Source: a virus. Taken from it: 43,387 nt of DNA. The DNA lies in the IMG/VR virus record IMGVR_UViG_3300009481_000024, positions 1-43,387 of that record, one strand, 5' to 3'. Positions 7,160-43,322 of this stretch are shown here, in pieces (position 1 is the stretch's first letter; the number at the start of each line of letters is the position of its first letter). The notes under the pieces are model-generated. The model saw only the letters and a list, made by a program, of their open reading frames with translations, made no database searches and was not told the DNA's origin. The translations under genes were made by a program, and so were the position numbers.

Positions 7160-7708
7160 ATGCCCTACAAGGACGCTGATAAACGCCGCGACTACAACCG
7201 TCGTTATCAGAAGCGCTACTACAAGGAGAACAAGCAGAAGCGCAAGGCTGAGGTTCGTGAGCGAAGGAAGTCTCTCCGGCGCTGGTATGCTGACCATCGG
7301 CGTGGGCTATCTTGCCAGCGATGTGGGTTGGCTGGGGACAATTGCCCTTGGCTGTTAGAGTTCCACCATCGACCCGAGGAAGAAAAACTTGCCTCGGTCA
7401 GTTTTCTGGTGAACAACGGATATTCGATTTCTCGTGTTGAAGAAGAGATGGAGAAGTGCGATGTGCTTTGCGCGAATTGCCATCGGCGAGAACACTACGA
7501 AGAATCAATCGAGCAAGGGTCAAGATTCGCCGCTGTCGGTGGAAGGCAGACTATTGACCTCAATAGTTCAGATGTGTCGATGGCTCACAATATCCGCCGT
7601 CGCCGAAAGAAGCACGAGAAAGAAAGACGCAAAGTTCGAGAGAGGGCGCTTCGGGATTTGCCAGAAGGACAATCGTTGCCCGGTCCGAACATTGATGAAG
7701 AGGAATAA
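7160..7708 (+). CDS. HNH endonuclease-like protein
   Basis: 182 aa from ATG 7160. A basic N-terminal helix region is followed by CxxC (C52, C55), LLEFHH (H69, H70) and CDVLCANCHRREHY (C104, C107, H108, H112), the standard phage HNH layout with zinc knuckles around the nuclease core; the tail is basic. Phage HNH proteins nick or cut DNA, and some act in packaging with the terminase, but the terminase is 7 kb away here. It contains a perfect copy of the dispersed palindrome. Confidence 0.85.
   Translation: MPYKDADKRRDYNRRYQKRYYKENKQKRKAEVRERRKSLRRWYADHRRGLSCQRCGLAGDNCPWLLEFHHRPEEEKLASVSFLVNNGYSISRVEEEMEKCDVLCANCHRREHYEESIEQGSRFAAVGGRQTIDLNSSDVSMAHNIRRRRKKHEKERRKVRERALRDLPEGQSLPGPNIDEEE
7551..7566. 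repeat. Dispersed palindrome, CTATTGACCTCAATAG
   Basis: Perfect 14-bp arms (CTATTGA/TCAATAG) inside the HNH gene, encoding TIDLNSS. Confidence 0.9.
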
Positions 7709-9393: not shown

Positions 9394-9792
9394 CATTCGG
9401 GAAGAAAGTCGTGGCACGGTATCAAGTGATGCGCCGCAATTTTCTGTTCACACCCCGACAAACGCCGTTGCTCTCGATAAGAGCCGGGACAGTTAGCCTT
9501 ATGCCGTCCTACAGCGTTAGCGAGTTTTCCCAACGGACTGTTTGTTGTTCGTAGCCTACCCAACTATCATATTCATTACTGAATCAAGAAGGCATCCCTC
9601 ATTACGGGGATTGACTGCCACCCTTCGATGTAGCCTCGCATTCTTCCCGGGGACTATCCCTGTCCGGGCGATGCTCCTATTCTTACCAGCCTTCGAGATG
9701 TATGCCCAGCAAGCCAGACTGCTCCTATTCGGTAATCCTTCGAGATTTATTCGCCCGGGGATTCGTCCCCATGAGAAGTCTCCTTCCCACAT
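9394..9792 (-). ncRNA. Candidate structured noncoding RNA A
   Basis: No credible plus-strand gene for 496 nt. On the minus strand a TATA-like CTTTATTAAT starts 30 nt before 9792. The transcript would form GGGG/CCCC near its 5' end, an 8-bp long-range stem CCGGGCGA/TCGCCCGG (9751-9758 with 9664-9671), and hairpins such as GCTCT/AGAGC and GGAC/GTCC. Inside the long stem lie two degenerate repeats. A 78-aa frame (9792 to 9556) opens at the predicted start, but its sequence looks unlike a folded protein and follows the RNA repeats. The 3' end is uncertain. Confidence 0.45.
9673..9746 (-). repeat. Two degenerate tandem repeats in RNA A
   Basis: Plus-strand copies at 9673-9699 and 9721-9746 share GCTCCTATTC and CTTCGAGAT around a variable 7-8 nt core, 48 bp apart. 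They lie between the arms of the 8-bp stem. Confidence 0.6.
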
Positions 9793-20360: not shown

Positions 20361-20407
20361 CATTGATAGACCGAAACCTTTATATGTGGAATCTGACTCG
20401 CTTAGAA
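20361..20407 (+). promoter_or_regulatory. Strong-class promoter with start-site motif
   Basis: CATTGATAGACCGAAACC then CTTTATATG from 20378 and GACTCGCTTAGAATAG at 20395-20410. The predicted start is near 20408. This is the fullest form of the promoter class shared with RNA B and RNA D. Confidence 0.7.
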
Positions 20408-20732
20408 TAGAGAGAACTGAGTTCCCTCCGCCCGAAAAACGGCTCGCCTCAAGAAGACCAGCAGTCCCCATAAGAACCACGCCACCCGGCGACCTTGAGA
20501 GCGAATTGCGGGCTCGTGAAAAAGAACCGGGTATGGAGTTGTTCAGTCAATCCATCAGACCCCTACGAGGGAGTCGCCACGGGACATTGATTGGAGAGTC
20601 CACCCGGAACTTTTGCACCCTTGGAAGAAGGATGCCTCGTGTGAAGAGTCGAAAACCGCTTTGCGGGAGAAGGATGCACAGATGAGGAAGAGTGGAAAGC
20701 CAAGGAATACTCAGTTCCGATTAACTCAATAA
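20408..20732 (+). ncRNA. Candidate noncoding RNA or long leader E
   Basis: The strong promoter at 20361 opens a stretch without an ATG-started gene in its first part; the protease at 20757 has its own TATA-like element (20725). Small hairpins such as CCGAAAAACGG occur near the 5' end. One frame is open from 20520 to a stop at 20730-20732 and its last 50 codons look protein-like (DIDWRVHPELLHPWKKDASC...), but it has no ATG until 20682. So this may be an RNA, a leader, or a gene broken by a frameshift. The 3' end is unknown. Confidence 0.35.
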
Positions 20733-25305: not shown

Positions 25306-25312
25306 ATAGGTT

Positions 25313-25395
25313 CGAGAGAAGAGGCCCGCGGTCCGCATCCCCGGGCGAAATCATCTATCCCTTTCAACGGAGTTATGCCTCTTCCCTCTTTGTGT
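25313..25395 (-). ncRNA. Candidate structured noncoding RNA B
   Basis: About 85 nt on the minus strand starting near 25395. Its ends pair in a 12-bp stem, GAGGGAAGAGGC (25388-25377) with GCCTCTTCTCTC (25325-25314); the one non-Watson-Crick pair is G-U on the minus strand but would be C-A on the plus strand, which favours minus-strand RNA. Inside, GCGGACCGC and GCCCG/CGGGC can pair. The promoter is of the strong class with ACTCGCTTAGAAC at the start. No ORF starts there. Confidence 0.55.
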
Positions 25396-32800: not shown

Positions 32801-34765
32801 CCACTAAATCAGAACGGTCTATTGCAATACCCGAATGCAACGACTTCTGGAAATCAGTTGTTCGGAACCAATAACAATAGTGATGTATGGCAGTCATTCT
32901 CATGGACTGAAAACCGAAGACCAGCCTACTCGGTCAATCGACCAGCGGTCTATGTTTGGGGGAACTCACCCTACTTTGAAAAGGGCTACCCCGGGAACAG
33001 CGACGGCAAATGGACTAACTCAGCGGAATGGCCTTTTGGAAATGGACAAGTTGGATTCGGTTCCTTGGGGAACGGTGTGGGAACAGGAAGTTCATACAAT
33101 GCCACCGAAGGAACAAACACAATTCGAACCTACTTCACCGAAGCAGGTCAGACAATGATACTGAATGGTTCCAACAAAGGAACGGACCCCAATGGTGCAA
33201 CTCCGGTTTGGGGAATGACCATCAAAGCCTGCGACACGGCAGTATCTTCCGCCGCTAACAACTACGATACTCTCATCAAATCCTCATCCGATGAACAGTT
33301 CCACGGCGACGACCCGAACAACGCGATTTCGTCAAAGGATTTCCAACTTGACTACCTCCATCTGAGACAGATACCATCTCCGGCCATGCTCCCATTCAAT
33401 GTCGATACCCTCACTCAGAAGATTACGGACATAGCGAAATACACTCAACTCACCATCGAGGCTGAGAATGTGAAAGCATCGAGTGGGATGGAGATTAAGG
33501 TCAGTATAATGGCCGCTCCTACTCCTGTCTCCGGCAGACCACAGTCCGCGGCAACAACTGTCGTCACCGGATTCGAAGAGATAGACCCGCAGTTCGTTGC
33601 GGGCATTGGTGTAGTGGACTTAACTGAACTCCCAGCCGCGCAGGTCACGAATGGATTCGTCATTCGATACCACTTCTATATCCCCGATTCAACACAAAGC
33701 GAATATCATCCGATTGATTGGAACCAAATTCCAATCATCAGAAAATGGACTCTCAATTACGACCTCAAACCTACGGCAAGTTTGGCGGTAATTGGAAACT
33801 CGTTTAGTGGCGACCTATCGAGCCCAATAGGCACGGAAGTTGGTCACATAATTTCCTTCCGTGGGACAGGAACTACAACTGACCCGGACCGATTGATTTC
33901 CAGCATCAAGTTTGACTTCGGTGATGGGTCGAATACCGGTTGGTTAAATTTTAGCGACCAAACTTTACAATCCACCACATACGACACCGCCCATGTCTAT
34001 TCCAAGGCTGGAACTTTCAGCGCTACTATTCTGACGAAAGACGACAATGAAAATGTGAGCGTAGCAAGTTCCGTGATTTCGGTAGTCGTAGCAGAAGTCA
34101 AACCCGTCGCCCTATTGAGGGCAATACCCCAAATGGTTCGTGCTGGACAGGCGATTACTTTCGACGCCAGCGAATCTTACACACTTTCTTCGGACACCGC
34201 CCGGACTATCGCATCCTACACATTCGACTTTGGAGATGGAAGTTCGACAACTTCCGGTGCTTCACCAAGCGCAACCCACACCTACGCCGCCGCTGGTGAA
34301 TATATGGCGACGGTCACAGCGACCGACAACGCATCTTCGGCAAACACCAGCCAAGCCGCGAAAGTCGTGGTGAAGATTTTGCCAGCAACTCTCGTAGTTC
34401 CATTGGCTCTCAACACAATGCCGTCTGGATTCAAGAGAAACCGACGGGCGTCGTATTCTTCAACAGAAGTTCTCGATGCAGTATATCCCGAGATGGCTGA
34501 TACAGGTCAGCGAAGTGATGAGTTCAAACTCAACGGCTCGTTCCTCAAAGCGACTGCGAATGCAGATATTGACTTCATGGAGGAACTGTTAGTCAGTGGG
34601 GCTCTTGTCGAATTCGAATACGAGGCCGTGAATTATTCCGGAAGCGCAACAGGCAAAACATTCGTGGGGCGCTTGACGAATTTCGACTACGAAAGAGAAG
34701 GTGGGAAGCATGGTGAAACACCTTGGTCGGCCTCGTTAGTGCGAGAAGCAGGGCTCGGGAATTAA
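29801..34765 (+). CDS. Giant tail/adhesin protein with two PKD domains
   Basis: 1654 aa starting directly after the previous stop. Most of it (residues 1-1320) is Gly, Ser, Asn and aromatic rich with no recognised fold, like phage fibres. Two PKD domains follow (about 1323-1430 and 1434-1526), each with the FDFGDGS core and an HVYSKAGTFSATI or HTYAAAGEYMATVTATD end. The last 125 residues (FKRNRRASYSSTEVLDAVYP ...) look like a separate tail-attachment domain. PKD domains mediate adhesion in archaeal surface proteins. Placed after the tape measure gene, it is probably a tail-tip or receptor-binding protein. Confidence 0.8.
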   Translation: MASVDQEITKPFSRMMNGLVELQPMWPAFIKNDGVGGLTVDPTLYASSFGPDTRAEEGGLNSENNTPGVRVEAIKDDGTVAASDDGSNTTFKVTLTGAGTFNPRCKVHQAGIETEFLLVAPSKDTKANAQTTYAHTISTNDRGWAGAMDTTDSAGPYPVFMTVQEFAEMLDTYRHIGTNDDEKVAFLPHGNQGGGLHSTASAAINPAVASDPRISSNTNWPADDSSAAIAQTLVRATVFMPMMLDNNQLDQRSTNADQNFAAAWPPNYSSADADLKGFLTADGTGLSRYDQQPDGADKTVIRYKNLGQSGDHKIGKVGGWSHYSSTGYTHGRGSRRAIGYSNADISLDSTPSLGPKYRMRMALACFLRNGEYDITSGGNLIPYVYDADRTIGGKNTMTLYQVWNGLDGYGAAGGHASSGFMKDCDAQIYPMFDFVQGPICPAAQGENAGMDAIQGTHRAWPNVMVGKYNPSGKNGYSMTSAPSPRMLSVRPNPRRLPVFGVEITNEGRIKFYVELTGTSDTVGMRWGNGMPVYVNGMTGKLGSGTQNINFYPDTWMNTLADGPTANQAAFTSVKGMDLNGWWVCFNNSDNTAGTSTTYDALFSDGDSTAVRYVTVEAQTMNKFFPSTAITKYRIGSASSPTTAFIRQGRLGGYMAGSTAYYYYAQNPLSSNYAQYYNSATQNIRIPGVPSWQVGAGTSDSNVPVGNNDTYPGRPTIFKATTPNQAGVYASDLRLTPRDIGPRKNGDSTFAVSPTASTVGGGSLRVPPPVGWDMAWCYMCRTNQTNLPGISAGLQTNDYGENVYSGTNPQSNRFWLRDASALSARFKKDSDYSSTDYTGNSYSRWIHRGLSLPFWSYMDNKTGKHAFDHIKPVSASGTWLFGRNRPWPIHERLGTRHGYTPSLLSSAKSVANDGDSYDGWDDYTPGTQQVEAGEETTKTGLSEMGCSPVWVDCEIRGWFPVQENRMTIIEFDNNQTYPLTGRHSMITGWHSNNGMAGFGFHPLNQNGLLQYPNATTSGNQLFGTNNNSDVWQSFSWTENRRPAYSVNRPAVYVWGNSPYFEKGYPGNSDGKWTNSAEWPFGNGQVGFGSLGNGVGTGSSYNATEGTNTIRTYFTEAGQTMILNGSNKGTDPNGATPVWGMTIKACDTAVSSAANNYDTLIKSSSDEQFHGDDPNNAISSKDFQLDYLHLRQIPSPAMLPFNVDTLTQKITDIAKYTQLTIEAENVKASSGMEIKVSIMAAPTPVSGRPQSAATTVVTGFEEIDPQFVAGIGVVDLTELPAAQVTNGFVIRYHFYIPDSTQSEYHPIDWNQIPIIRKWTLNYDLKPTASLAVIGNSFSGDLSSPIGTEVGHIISFRGTGTTTDPDRLISSIKFDFGDGSNTGWLNFSDQTLQSTTYDTAHVYSKAGTFSATILTKDDNENVSVASSVISVVVAEVKPVALLRAIPQMVRAGQAITFDASESYTLSSDTARTIASYTFDFGDGSSTTSGASPSATHTYAAAGEYMATVTATDNASSANTSQAAKVVVKILPATLVVPLALNTMPSGFKRNRRASYSSTEVLDAVYPEMADTGQRSDEFKLNGSFLKATANADIDFMEELLVSGALVEFEYEAVNYSGSATGKTFVGRLTNFDYEREGGKHGETPWSASLVREAGLGN
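33815..33830. repeat. Dispersed palindrome, CTATCGAGCCCAATAG
   Basis: One arm mismatch, in the first PKD coding region. Confidence 0.7.
34112..34127. repeat. Dispersed palindrome, CTATTGAGGGCAATAC
   Basis: One arm mismatch, at the start of the second PKD coding region. Confidence 0.75.
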
Positions 34766-34783
34766 GTAGGTGGGCGTTGTCGA

Positions 34784-34951
34784 ATGATTATGATAGACCT
34801 CAGAATCATTGACGCGATAAACGAAGGCGACCTAATTCAATGGTCAGATATTATTCCAGAACAACTCGTTTTGCTCAGTATCTTCGGTGTGACCCTCGGG
34901 AGTGGCGTGCTTTTCCGCCTGTGGCTCTCTTGGCGACCCCAACCCACTTAA
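34784..34951 (+). CDS. Small single-span membrane protein
   Basis: 55 aa with a polar N-terminus and one hydrophobic helix (LVLLSIFGVTLGSGVLFRLW). A weak TATA-like ATTAAGTAGG lies just upstream, with GTGGGCG as at other promoters. Its 3' end overlaps the minus-strand gene that runs toward it. Function unknown. Confidence 0.5.
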   Translation: MIMIDLRIIDAINEGDLIQWSDIIPEQLVLLSIFGVTLGSGVLFRLWLSWRPQPT

Positions 34952-35252
34952 CCGCAAGGGTTCGAAGTGTGGTCTTGGAGACTTCTTGTGTGTCCCTGCG
35001 TAGCATGACTGTCTCGCAGACTCCGTTGCGGACGATTGCGATTACAAGGTTTCCGTTGCTGGACACGCCTGCTCCATCAGTCATTCGGCGGGTCTTGAGG
35101 TCCATAGCGACGACACCAAGGGTCGCCTGCTGGCATCGGCTCCATGCGAGTTCAGTGCGTGCTTCGATGGTTTTCTTCTCGGCGTCTGATAGCCTAACTG
35201 CCATGCGTGCGTAGGCGTGAGGGTCGATTGCGAGTTTCGCGCCGTTCTCCAT
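34875..35252 (-). CDS. Small basic protein, unknown, antisense
   Basis: 125 aa on the minus strand from ATG at 35252, with TATA-like CTTTATAG starting 30 nt upstream (35282). A helical N-terminal part (ARMAVRLSDAEKKTIEARTE) is followed by strands (LVIAIVRNGVCETVMLRR) and a basic tail. It is one of only two minus-strand genes called here, and its promoter is back to back with that of RNA C. A regulator is possible; no family recognised. Confidence 0.65.
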   Translation of the reverse strand: MENGAKLAIDPHAYARMAVRLSDAEKKTIEARTELAWSRCQQATLGVVAMDLKTRRMTDGAGVSSNGNLVIAIVRNGVCETVMLRRDTQEVSKTTLRTLAVKWVGVAKRATGGKARHSRGSHRRY

Positions 35253-35283
35253 GTATAGTCGTAGGAGTTTCCCCCTATAAAGG
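35253..35283 (-). promoter_or_regulatory. Minus-strand promoter of the 125-aa gene
   Basis: Minus strand reads ATATTGATGTTGCGAAACC then TTTATAG: TTGAT, GAAACC and TATA in the strong-class order. Confidence 0.65.
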
Positions 35284-35305
35284 TTTCGCAACATCAATAT
35301 ACTAT

Positions 35306-35350
35306 GACTATCAATGAAAACCTTTATTAATGAAGGGCTACTCCCATAGA
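35306..35350 (+). promoter_or_regulatory. Strong-class promoter of RNA C
   Basis: ATCAATGAAAACCTTTATTAATG, TATA from 35322, then CTACTCCCATAGAATG at the start near 35351. Confidence 0.65.
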
Positions 35351-35698
35351 ATGCCGGAGCGTGGTTCCGGTGCGCGGAATTGACCCCCCATCGGTAGGTG
35401 GGGCGCAACACCGGCGCGGGAAAATAGAAACGGATTAAGCGCGTGGGAACATTGACGACAGGCACTCGGAAGAGAAGGAAGCCACCACTCTAAGGGGACA
35501 CCTATGGGTAGGTAAGAGTCGATTAGTCACGCCACATCTGACGGAGAGAGCCAGCAGATATGCTGGTGGTCTATCAAGAGCCACGGGGAAACCATAAACA
35601 GGGGTGAAGAGAAAAGTCTCCAACGGGAAGAAACGATACGCGCTTTGAGGCTGACCAACCGAAATCCGAGTTCGCCTACACGCGCTGGCGACTATTTT
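35351..35698 (+). ncRNA. Candidate large structured noncoding RNA C
   Basis: About 350 nt with no ORF beyond ten codons from the start. Stems visible by eye: CCGGTG/CACCGG (35367-35372 with 35409-35414) enclosing CCCCA/TGGGG; a long-range AGCGCGTG/CACGCGCT (35438-35445 with 35679-35686); ACTCT/AGAGT enclosing ACCTA-TGGG-TAGGT (35500-35513); and CCAGCA-GATA-TGCTGG (35551-35566). It ends near a short T run (35695-35698). It lacks the SRP, RNase P and tRNA signatures I know. Best candidate in the window for a new RNA family. Confidence 0.6.
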
Positions 35699-35721
35699 CC
35701 CTTAATGGTAGCAACTAAACT

Positions 35722-35746
35722 ATTCATAAAGGTGGGATATTGAGGA
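35722..35746 (+). promoter_or_regulatory. TATA-like promoter of the HD gene
   Basis: ATTCATAAAGG starts 25 nt before ATG 35747. Confidence 0.6.
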
Positions 35747-36334
35747 ATGAGCATGAACGCGGTTGCTAATATCAAAGGAATTTGGGTTGAAGCCCCGCGC
35801 TCGCTTGCTGGCTTTCGTAGCATCCTCGCTTGGATTCCCGAATACGACAATTCTTCCAATCTATTCCACAGTCCGGAGTATCATCCGGAAGGCGACCACA
35901 GTCTGACGGCTCATCTTTCGTTTGCCTTTTCGAAGTGGCATCAAGAAATTCCATGCCTTTGCAACGCTCCCCATTCTCACGAACTCGCTTTCTGGGCTGT
36001 CCTCTTCCATGATATTGGGAAGGACGCTACGGCCAAACAAAAGGTAGGCGGCACATTCAGTTTCATTAAGCACGAGAGCGAAGGCGTGAAAATCTTCAAC
36101 GAGAACTACGCTCATTGGTTTAGCGACGAGGATGCTGAGGCCATCGCCTATTGCATCAAGGAGCATACGAACTTTTGGAACATCGCCAAGCACGGGAAGG
36201 TTGAGGCTATGAAGAACCATCCTCACTTCTGGCTTCTTGCTGAGGTCTGTCTTTGCGACAAGATGGGCTACAAAGATGACGAATGGAGTGAGAGGCTTAC
36301 CTTCTTCGGCTTTGATAAGAAGGAGGTTGAATGA
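35747..36334 (+). CDS. HD-domain phosphohydrolase
   Basis: 195 aa. Metal ligands fit the HD pattern: H56 (SLTAHL), H88-D89 (LFHDIGKDA), H109 (IKHES), H140 (IKEHTNFW) and a late Asp near D171. HD proteins cleave phosphoester bonds in nucleotides or nucleic acids; small viral members may act on dNTPs, cyclic nucleotides or tRNA ends. The substrate is unknown. An SD near its end starts the next gene. Confidence 0.82.
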   Translation: MSMNAVANIKGIWVEAPRSLAGFRSILAWIPEYDNSSNLFHSPEYHPEGDHSLTAHLSFAFSKWHQEIPCLCNAPHSHELAFWAVLFHDIGKDATAKQKVGGTFSFIKHESEGVKIFNENYAHWFSDEDAEAIAYCIKEHTNFWNIAKHGKVEAMKNHPHFWLLAEVCLCDKMGYKDDEWSERLTFFGFDKKEVE

Positions 36335-43042: not shown

Positions 43043-43094
43043 TGACGACTATGGACACGGATGAATGGCCACGAATTGTAGTCTGGCTTTGCCG

Positions 43095-43322
43095 AAAAAT
43101 TGGCTTCTTGATTTAGTGTGGAGCCCACCGATTCCAAGACCCCTGCGGTGACGGTTCTGTCTCGTGCGTGAAAGGCGGTTTCTCGGTGGGCTCAATTTTT
43201 TTGGTTGGGGTAGTTATTGGGATTAGAGTAGTCGGCAACCTTTGAACTCAGCCGATTTGTTCACTTCATAGGTTCAGTTCCCGCGTCCGTTTGGGGTCTG
43301 TATTCCTCTCCGTTCCTCCTAT
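43095..43322 (-). ncRNA. Candidate structured noncoding RNA D
   Basis: No gene follows the 2123-aa stop. On the minus strand a strong-class promoter predicts a start near 43322. The RNA could form AACCT/AGGTT enclosing TGAAC/GTTCA, then a perfect 11-bp stem GAGCCCACCGA/TCGGTGGGCTC (43183-43193 with 43121-43131) and ends by a T5 run (plus 43094-43099). Read on the plus strand, the same 11-bp stem followed by T7 (43196-43202) could equally be the terminator of the giant gene; both uses are possible. Confidence 0.45.
43121..43202 (+). terminator. Possible terminator of the 2123-aa gene
   Basis: 11-bp inverted repeat (43121-43131 and 43183-43193) with a 51-nt loop, directly followed by AATTTTTTT. 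The loop is long for a classical terminator; U-runs alone often end archaeal transcripts. Confidence 0.4.

Follow-up and report, generated by a model that had tools for sequence, protein, structure and literature searches.

The window, that is the whole stretch of DNA analysed here, is a record of 43,387 bases from an uncultured virus, with genes for terminase, portal, prohead protease, major capsid and tape-measure proteins. In one of its gaps (35253-35752), with an antisense gene on one side and a gene for an HD-domain protein on the other, the plus strand has no credible ORF. An earlier note, made from the sequence alone, had proposed for this gap a structured RNA of some 350 nt with a promoter of its own, belonging to no recognised class. 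This raises the question whether the gap holds a gene for a non-coding RNA, here called RNA A, and of what kind. We have little doubt that the gap does hold such a gene and that its RNA is structured; the earlier proposal was borne out, with corrections to the promoter type, the limits and the long-range pairing. To our knowledge, hardly any genes for structured non-coding RNAs have been described so far in tailed viruses of archaea.

Promoter, limits and homologue of RNA A

The gene context that had been described was found: the antisense gene (34875-35252) lies on the opposite strand and has its own promoter, and the gene 3' of RNA A encodes an HD protein according to its Pfam match. On a larger scale, the region lies between two ORFs of great length (1654 and 2123 aa). 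RNA A is preceded on the plus strand by a promoter of archaeal type (35317-35352), with the BRE/TATA element AAAACCTTTATTAAT at 35317-35331 and the initiator ACTCCCATAGAAT at 35340-35352. An archaeal transcription unit was defined by a BRE/TATA element that precedes the start by about 26-30 nt. Here the predicted start falls at 35349/35353, and the spacing is that seen at the leaderless ATGs of the family viruses. Their TATA spacing agrees with the mapped promoters of halovirus HF2, where TATA begins at -26 and BRE lies at -33 to -37 (PMC8707807). A promoter belonging to this RNA, as claimed before, is present, but it is of the archaeal type; no sigma-70-like -35/-10 site was detected on the plus strand between 34500 and 36500. 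By indirect evidence, which is limited to these promoters and the leaderless genes, with TATA spacing as in HF2, the tailed virus very likely infects archaea. Genes for MCM and PCNA were absent from the 12 records tested, and for terminase, capsid and portal proteins the closest catalogue entries are distant relatives, mostly from bacterial phages.

Near-copies of AAAACCTTTATTAAT occur at other sites of the window, within larger inverted or direct repeats. With stringent settings 36 copies of the motif were collected from this virus and its relatives, falling into two main groups. An ATG lies 27-29 nt from the TATA T in 16 of the 36, which are leaderless genes. Thirteen have no ATG, and several carry an initiator of the CTCGCTTAG or CTCGCTTAGAAT type and open RNAs. 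A scan of IMG/VR with the promoter pattern returned 12 stretches, several of them by chance. When antisense targets of RNA A were sought within the window genome, the promoter repeats were the sole matches. Two further kinds of repeated sequence were observed near promoters or elsewhere in the window. The palindrome-like repeat TATTGACCTCAATA is present at 7546, 14913, 21449, 29137 and 41989, and (A)TTGAT/ATCAA(T) boxes are frequent just 5' of the TATA boxes of most promoters; both are possible sites of a viral regulator. Hairpin-like repeats of the form AAAATCCCTTGC...GCAAGTTTTCGA were seen at 144, 1314, 5893, 5935 and 20300 and are perhaps terminators.

One homologue of RNA A was identified. 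Contig 3300010153_000014 (L004; 43,439 bases) has it at the same place with 83% identity, and the promoter there is identical except for one initiator base. A relative of the 1654-aa protein is encoded at 37 loci, and RNA A accompanies it in L004 alone (protein 90% identical; 63% in L005). No further homologue was found by blastn of phage records, by nhmmer over all loci or in 31 whole viral records. New matches from an exact-pattern search of IMG/VR with three conserved blocks of RNA A were due to chance, and coding where they were read. Searches of viral and genome contigs with the HD protein and an HD alignment yielded no RNA A besides that of L004. The tail protein had no match in genome contigs, so no host genome was reached.

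RNA A (35353-35705, plus strand) is about 350 nt long when measured from its promoter to the next promoter. Its 5' end is predicted at 35349-35353 and its 3' end probably lies at about 35701-35705, which improves on the limits of 35351-35698 given first. The absence of an ORF was confirmed: on the plus strand of RNA A the longest candidates, neither of them credible, begin with GTG (25 aa) and with TTG (32 aa, extending past the 3' end), and L004 has ATA in place of the only ATG near the start (35351). No recognisable terminator was found 3' of RNA A before the HD gene, and read-through into that gene is possible. The folding energy of RNA A has a z of -3.0 (0 of 100 shuffles as low), and that of the L004 copy a z of -2.2. 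About 4.5% of equal-length windows of the same genome reach the z of RNA A, and its antisense strand folds better (z -4.8). On its own, the folding energy is weak evidence. Because it is moderate, the case for RNA A rests on the promoter, on covariation and on the comparison with other RNAs.

Helices of RNA A

Covariation was assessed on two sequences, the window and L004. RNA A starts at +1 with H1 (35353-35371; GCCGGAGC-GUG-GUUCCGGU), a 5' hairpin of 8 bp, which is followed by the second hairpin H2 (35372-35417), abutting both H1 and P1. Both hairpins belong to the MFE structure of either homologue. The closing G-U of H1 is A-U in L004, a one-sided change, and H2 shows one change from C-G to U-G. 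The closing helix P1 joins 35418-35427 (GGGAAAAUAG) to 35692-35701 (CUAUUUUCCC). In L004 nine of its ten pairs are kept, with two double changes (A-U to G-C and U-A to C-G) and one change from G-C to G-U; the broken pair is at the inner end of the helix. Compensatory changes in a homologue, named by the earlier note as a check, are therefore present in P1 in this comparison of two sequences. When as many substitutions as observed were placed at random, 0.6% of trials (mixed) or 3% (transitions only) showed two double changes and no broken pair; these figures (0.006-0.03, two null models) are slightly favourable, since one pair of the real helix is broken.

Within the core, P2 would join 35437-35444 (AAGCGCGU) to 35638-35645 (ACGCGCUU) by 8 bp. 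Its sequence is identical in both homologues, which is compatible with the helix and not a proof of it; P2 is absent from the unconstrained MFE structure, which prefers other pairings. P3 pairs AUUGAC (35451-35456) with GUCGAU (35518-35523). In L004 these strands read AUCGAC/GUUGAU, and after two one-sided changes all six pairs are kept. The hairpin P6 (35551-35566; CCAGCA-GAUA-UGCUGG) had been pointed out before and is retained in L004 with one change from C-G to U-G. Several stems of this RNA are real (H1, H2, P1 and P6), but the 8-bp long-range pairing of 35438-35445 with 35679-35686, named in the earlier note, is not conserved. It can form in the window, where it competes with P2, and was rejected because L004 lacks its 3' strand.

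The H1-H2-P1 layout in other viral RNAs

In related viruses, long non-coding stretches 3' of promoters of this type were read as candidate RNAs. RNA A, RNA F (L007/L013/L121/L122), RNA X (L101) and RNA Y (L008) are unrelated in sequence, and each folds unaided into the same layout: an archaeal promoter, an 8-bp 5' hairpin at +1 with a loop of 3-4 nt, an abutting H2 and an abutting helix that closes the RNA. By prediction from their sequences, the layout is common to A (both copies), D2, E, F, H, X, Y and Z, and the H1 register of RNA A recurs. RNA G of L004, with a short P1, is a probable further member. This set of viral RNAs with a common start signal and a three-helix scaffold is previously undescribed, and RNA A very probably belongs to it.

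The layout was first noticed in these RNAs and tested afterwards. By chance it arose in two of 750 dinucleotide shuffles and one of 300 genome windows. The 3' ends in the shuffle test had been picked at P1 (those of X and Y were chosen), and a repeat with a free 3' end removes this choice. Nine of 28 promoter starts then fit: two for A, three for F and one each for X, Y, E and Z. Four of 80 random starts fit loosely, none of them in the same register. Under fixed rules, promoter and H1 were found together at 18 positions in 1.06 Mb, overlapping ones counted, where 2.2 would be expected. Of the distinct sites, about ten seem genuine and three seem due to chance.

The fixed-rule scan uncovered RNA H in the window and D2 in L004. 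RNA H (9666-9790, minus strand) has H1, H2 and a P1 of GGGCGA/UCGCCC. Its homologue in L025 (14087-13863, minus strand) lies at another genomic place, and its P1 differs in sequence yet pairs. Two copies of AUCUCGAAGG...GAAUAGGAGC form part of the core and are conserved in this homologue. RNA H overlaps a listed ORF of 78 aa (9556-9792, minus strand), which perhaps is not a real gene. RNA D (25312-25389, minus strand) is a core closed by P1 and has neither H1 nor H2; its equivalent D2 has both hairpins as well as a P1 of 12 bp that differs in sequence. The cores of D and D2 are similar and their P1 helices quite different (GAGGGAAGAGGC/GCCUCUUCUCUC versus GGGCGAGAGAGG/CCUCUCUCGCCC), both being paired. 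Compensation in a scaffold helix was thus found in P1 of A, D/D2 and H, and in H1 of A the change is one-sided only. For RNA F, three double changes separate L121 from L122.

Scaffold and promoter do not correspond one to one. The same promoters also drive RNAs of other folds, such as B, C, D and others without the layout. RNA B (20407-20720, plus strand; z -4.9) has another layout and is 97% conserved in G001. Its 42-nt module AAGACCAGCAGUCCCCAUMAGAACCACGCCACCCGGCGACC is 98% identical in G017, where it lies inside a stand-alone hairpin. Besides RNA B itself, the module was observed in L049, L096 and L050 (1542-1470, minus strand). It is nearly invariant across viruses whose tail proteins are 56% identical, and the enclosing stem is wholly different yet complementary. 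RNA C (43057-43321, minus strand) is driven by such a promoter, is 88% identical in G001 and has an ordinary overall fold (z -0.3). A 51-nt module of it is 90% identical in a short stand-alone RNA of G010 (53217-53167; minus strand of L101). In the RNA C block ACCGCCYUUCAMGCACGAGRCAGAACCGYCACCGCAGGGGUCUUGG, GRC and GYC change together. Hairpins resembling a T-arm (e.g. GCGGGGCUCGAAUCCCCGC and AGGUCGCUCGAAUCGACCU) were seen in promoter-driven RNAs at L025 4291 (minus), L004 4399 (plus), L066 1696 (plus), L100 439 (minus) and L101 3754 (minus); ARAGORN called no tRNA in those of these loci that were scanned. B, C and the RNAs with T-arm-like hairpins do not have the H1-H2-P1 layout, E excepted. 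No relative of B, F or H was detected in 50,697 phage records.

Possible role and comparison with known RNAs

Because unrelated cores use the same promoter type and scaffold, the scaffold is best read as the common part and the core as the variable, acting part. We lean towards RNA A being a trans-acting non-coding RNA with an archaeal-promoter start, ends locked by H1, H2 and P1, and the core as its acting part. The host RNA polymerase would start RNA A at 35349-35353 from the BRE/TATA promoter with its virus-specific initiator. The first 20 or so nucleotides would fold at once into H1, and H2 would follow without a linker. P1 would then join the next 10 nt to the 3' end and enclose a multibranched core of about 265 nt. 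With both ends locked in three abutting helices, the RNA would be compact and resistant to exonucleases. The core putatively binds a factor of the host or the virus and might serve, for instance, as decoy or scaffold in the conflict between the two. Action in trans is probable; action on a host factor is a tentative proposal.

RNA A could also act in cis, as a 5' leader that controls the HD gene like a riboswitch or by attenuation; this gene lies about 50 nt downstream on the same strand with no strong terminator between. RNA A and the HD gene occur together in the window and in L004, and both are missing from L005, where the antisense gene and the next gene use a common divergent promoter. 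This joint absence suggests accessory behaviour of the stretch of RNA A and HD. Against a leader stands the separate leaderless promoter of the HD gene 3' of the end of RNA A (TATTCATAA; promoter and start 35717-35753, plus strand). Its spacing is identical in L004, and the ORF of L004 begins at the ATG equivalent to 35753. Furthermore, a related HD protein of another virus (L044 5983-6522; 51% identical) has no RNA A-like stretch upstream. Convergent genes lie at the 3' ends of RNA F (L007) and RNA X (L101), and the gene that follows Y, a different one, has a leaderless promoter of its own. A cis-regulatory role common to these RNAs is therefore unlikely, and we consider a leader function of RNA A improbable. 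At the site 3' of the large tail gene, differing promoter-rich and ORF-poor stretches were seen in relatives (L006 7920-7680, minus; L007 14108-14230, plus; L008 8523-8890). From these sequences the site looks like a hot spot for RNA or cargo genes.

GOLLD and ROOL RNAs form homo-oligomeric RNA-only complexes and are often located near tRNA islands. Like them, RNA A is virus-encoded, structured and non-coding, with a promoter of its own and a biological function that is not established (PMC12286853), and by analogy it might assemble with itself into a multimer or cage. Unlike them, it has no tRNA neighbours (no tRNA was found in the window), starts from an archaeal promoter and shares its scaffold with RNAs whose cores are unrelated in sequence. 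It is also smaller: scaffold RNAs measure 240-350 nt, and many GOLLD members exceed 800 nt (PMC12286853). At the gathering threshold Rfam gave no match for the window or for 17 related loci, and none to GOLLD, ROOL or another class up to E 10 in 34700-36000. The earlier statement that no known RNA class is represented was upheld by these scans. The analogy to GOLLD and ROOL drawn with it was not supported: Rfam match and tRNA are missing, the layout differs and the RNA is only about half as large; membership in either class was ruled out by covariance models. A self-assembling RNA of this kind is quite improbable.

A GC-rich intergenic remnant with a chance fold beside a promoter, and no function as an RNA, would fit an energy within the top 4.5% of windows only, the better fold of the antisense strand and the single homologue. 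It would not account for the compensatory changes in P1, nor for the fixed register of promoter, the two hairpins and closing helix, which recurs in unrelated RNAs, and is very improbable. A pRNA-like packaging or replication RNA required by every virion would suit the location in the structural half of the genome, but it is scarcely credible, as by sequence only L004 has RNA A among the 31 whole records, the syntenic site of L005 lacks it and several different scaffolded RNAs occur per genome.

The trans-acting RNA with a variable core thus remains our preferred reading. It is possible, though less likely than not, that this clade of archaeal tailed viruses holds a repertoire of RNA effectors with one promoter, a nuclease-proof three-helix scaffold and interchangeable, fast-evolving cores. 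Some of these would mimic the tRNA elbow, and the RNAs would be used like accessory genes against host defences. If a common scaffold with unrelated cores is true, viruses would diversify RNA effectors like small accessory proteins. None of the 4227 Rfam families covers RNA A and its sister RNAs. Promoter plus 5' hairpin is a simple rule for finding such RNAs in other archaeal viruses, and the scaffold RNAs are obvious transcripts to seek in ocean metatranscriptomes.

In size (250-400 nt), multibranched core and long closing helix, RNA A resembles group I and group II introns and other large RNAs of Rfam. In contrast to the introns, it gives no match and interrupts no gene, being bounded by promoters and convergent genes. 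A self-splicing intron was rejected, since Rfam gave no match and RNA A is intergenic with its own promoter. Viral or bacterial RNAs that mimic tRNA exist, bacterial Y RNAs being an example. Compared with these, RNA A shows no visible T-arm-like hairpin, and ARAGORN calls no tRNA in it, whereas sister RNAs (E in L025/L004, L066 1699 plus, and those in L100 and L101) hold such hairpins. The promoters resemble the intergenic-repeat promoters of HF2 (PMC8707807), which likewise are dispersed, near-identical repeats of an archaeal tailed virus with BRE/TATA and a conserved start-site motif. Non-coding RNA is not mentioned in the text of that study (PMC8707807); here, one initiator type precedes structured non-coding RNAs instead of genes.
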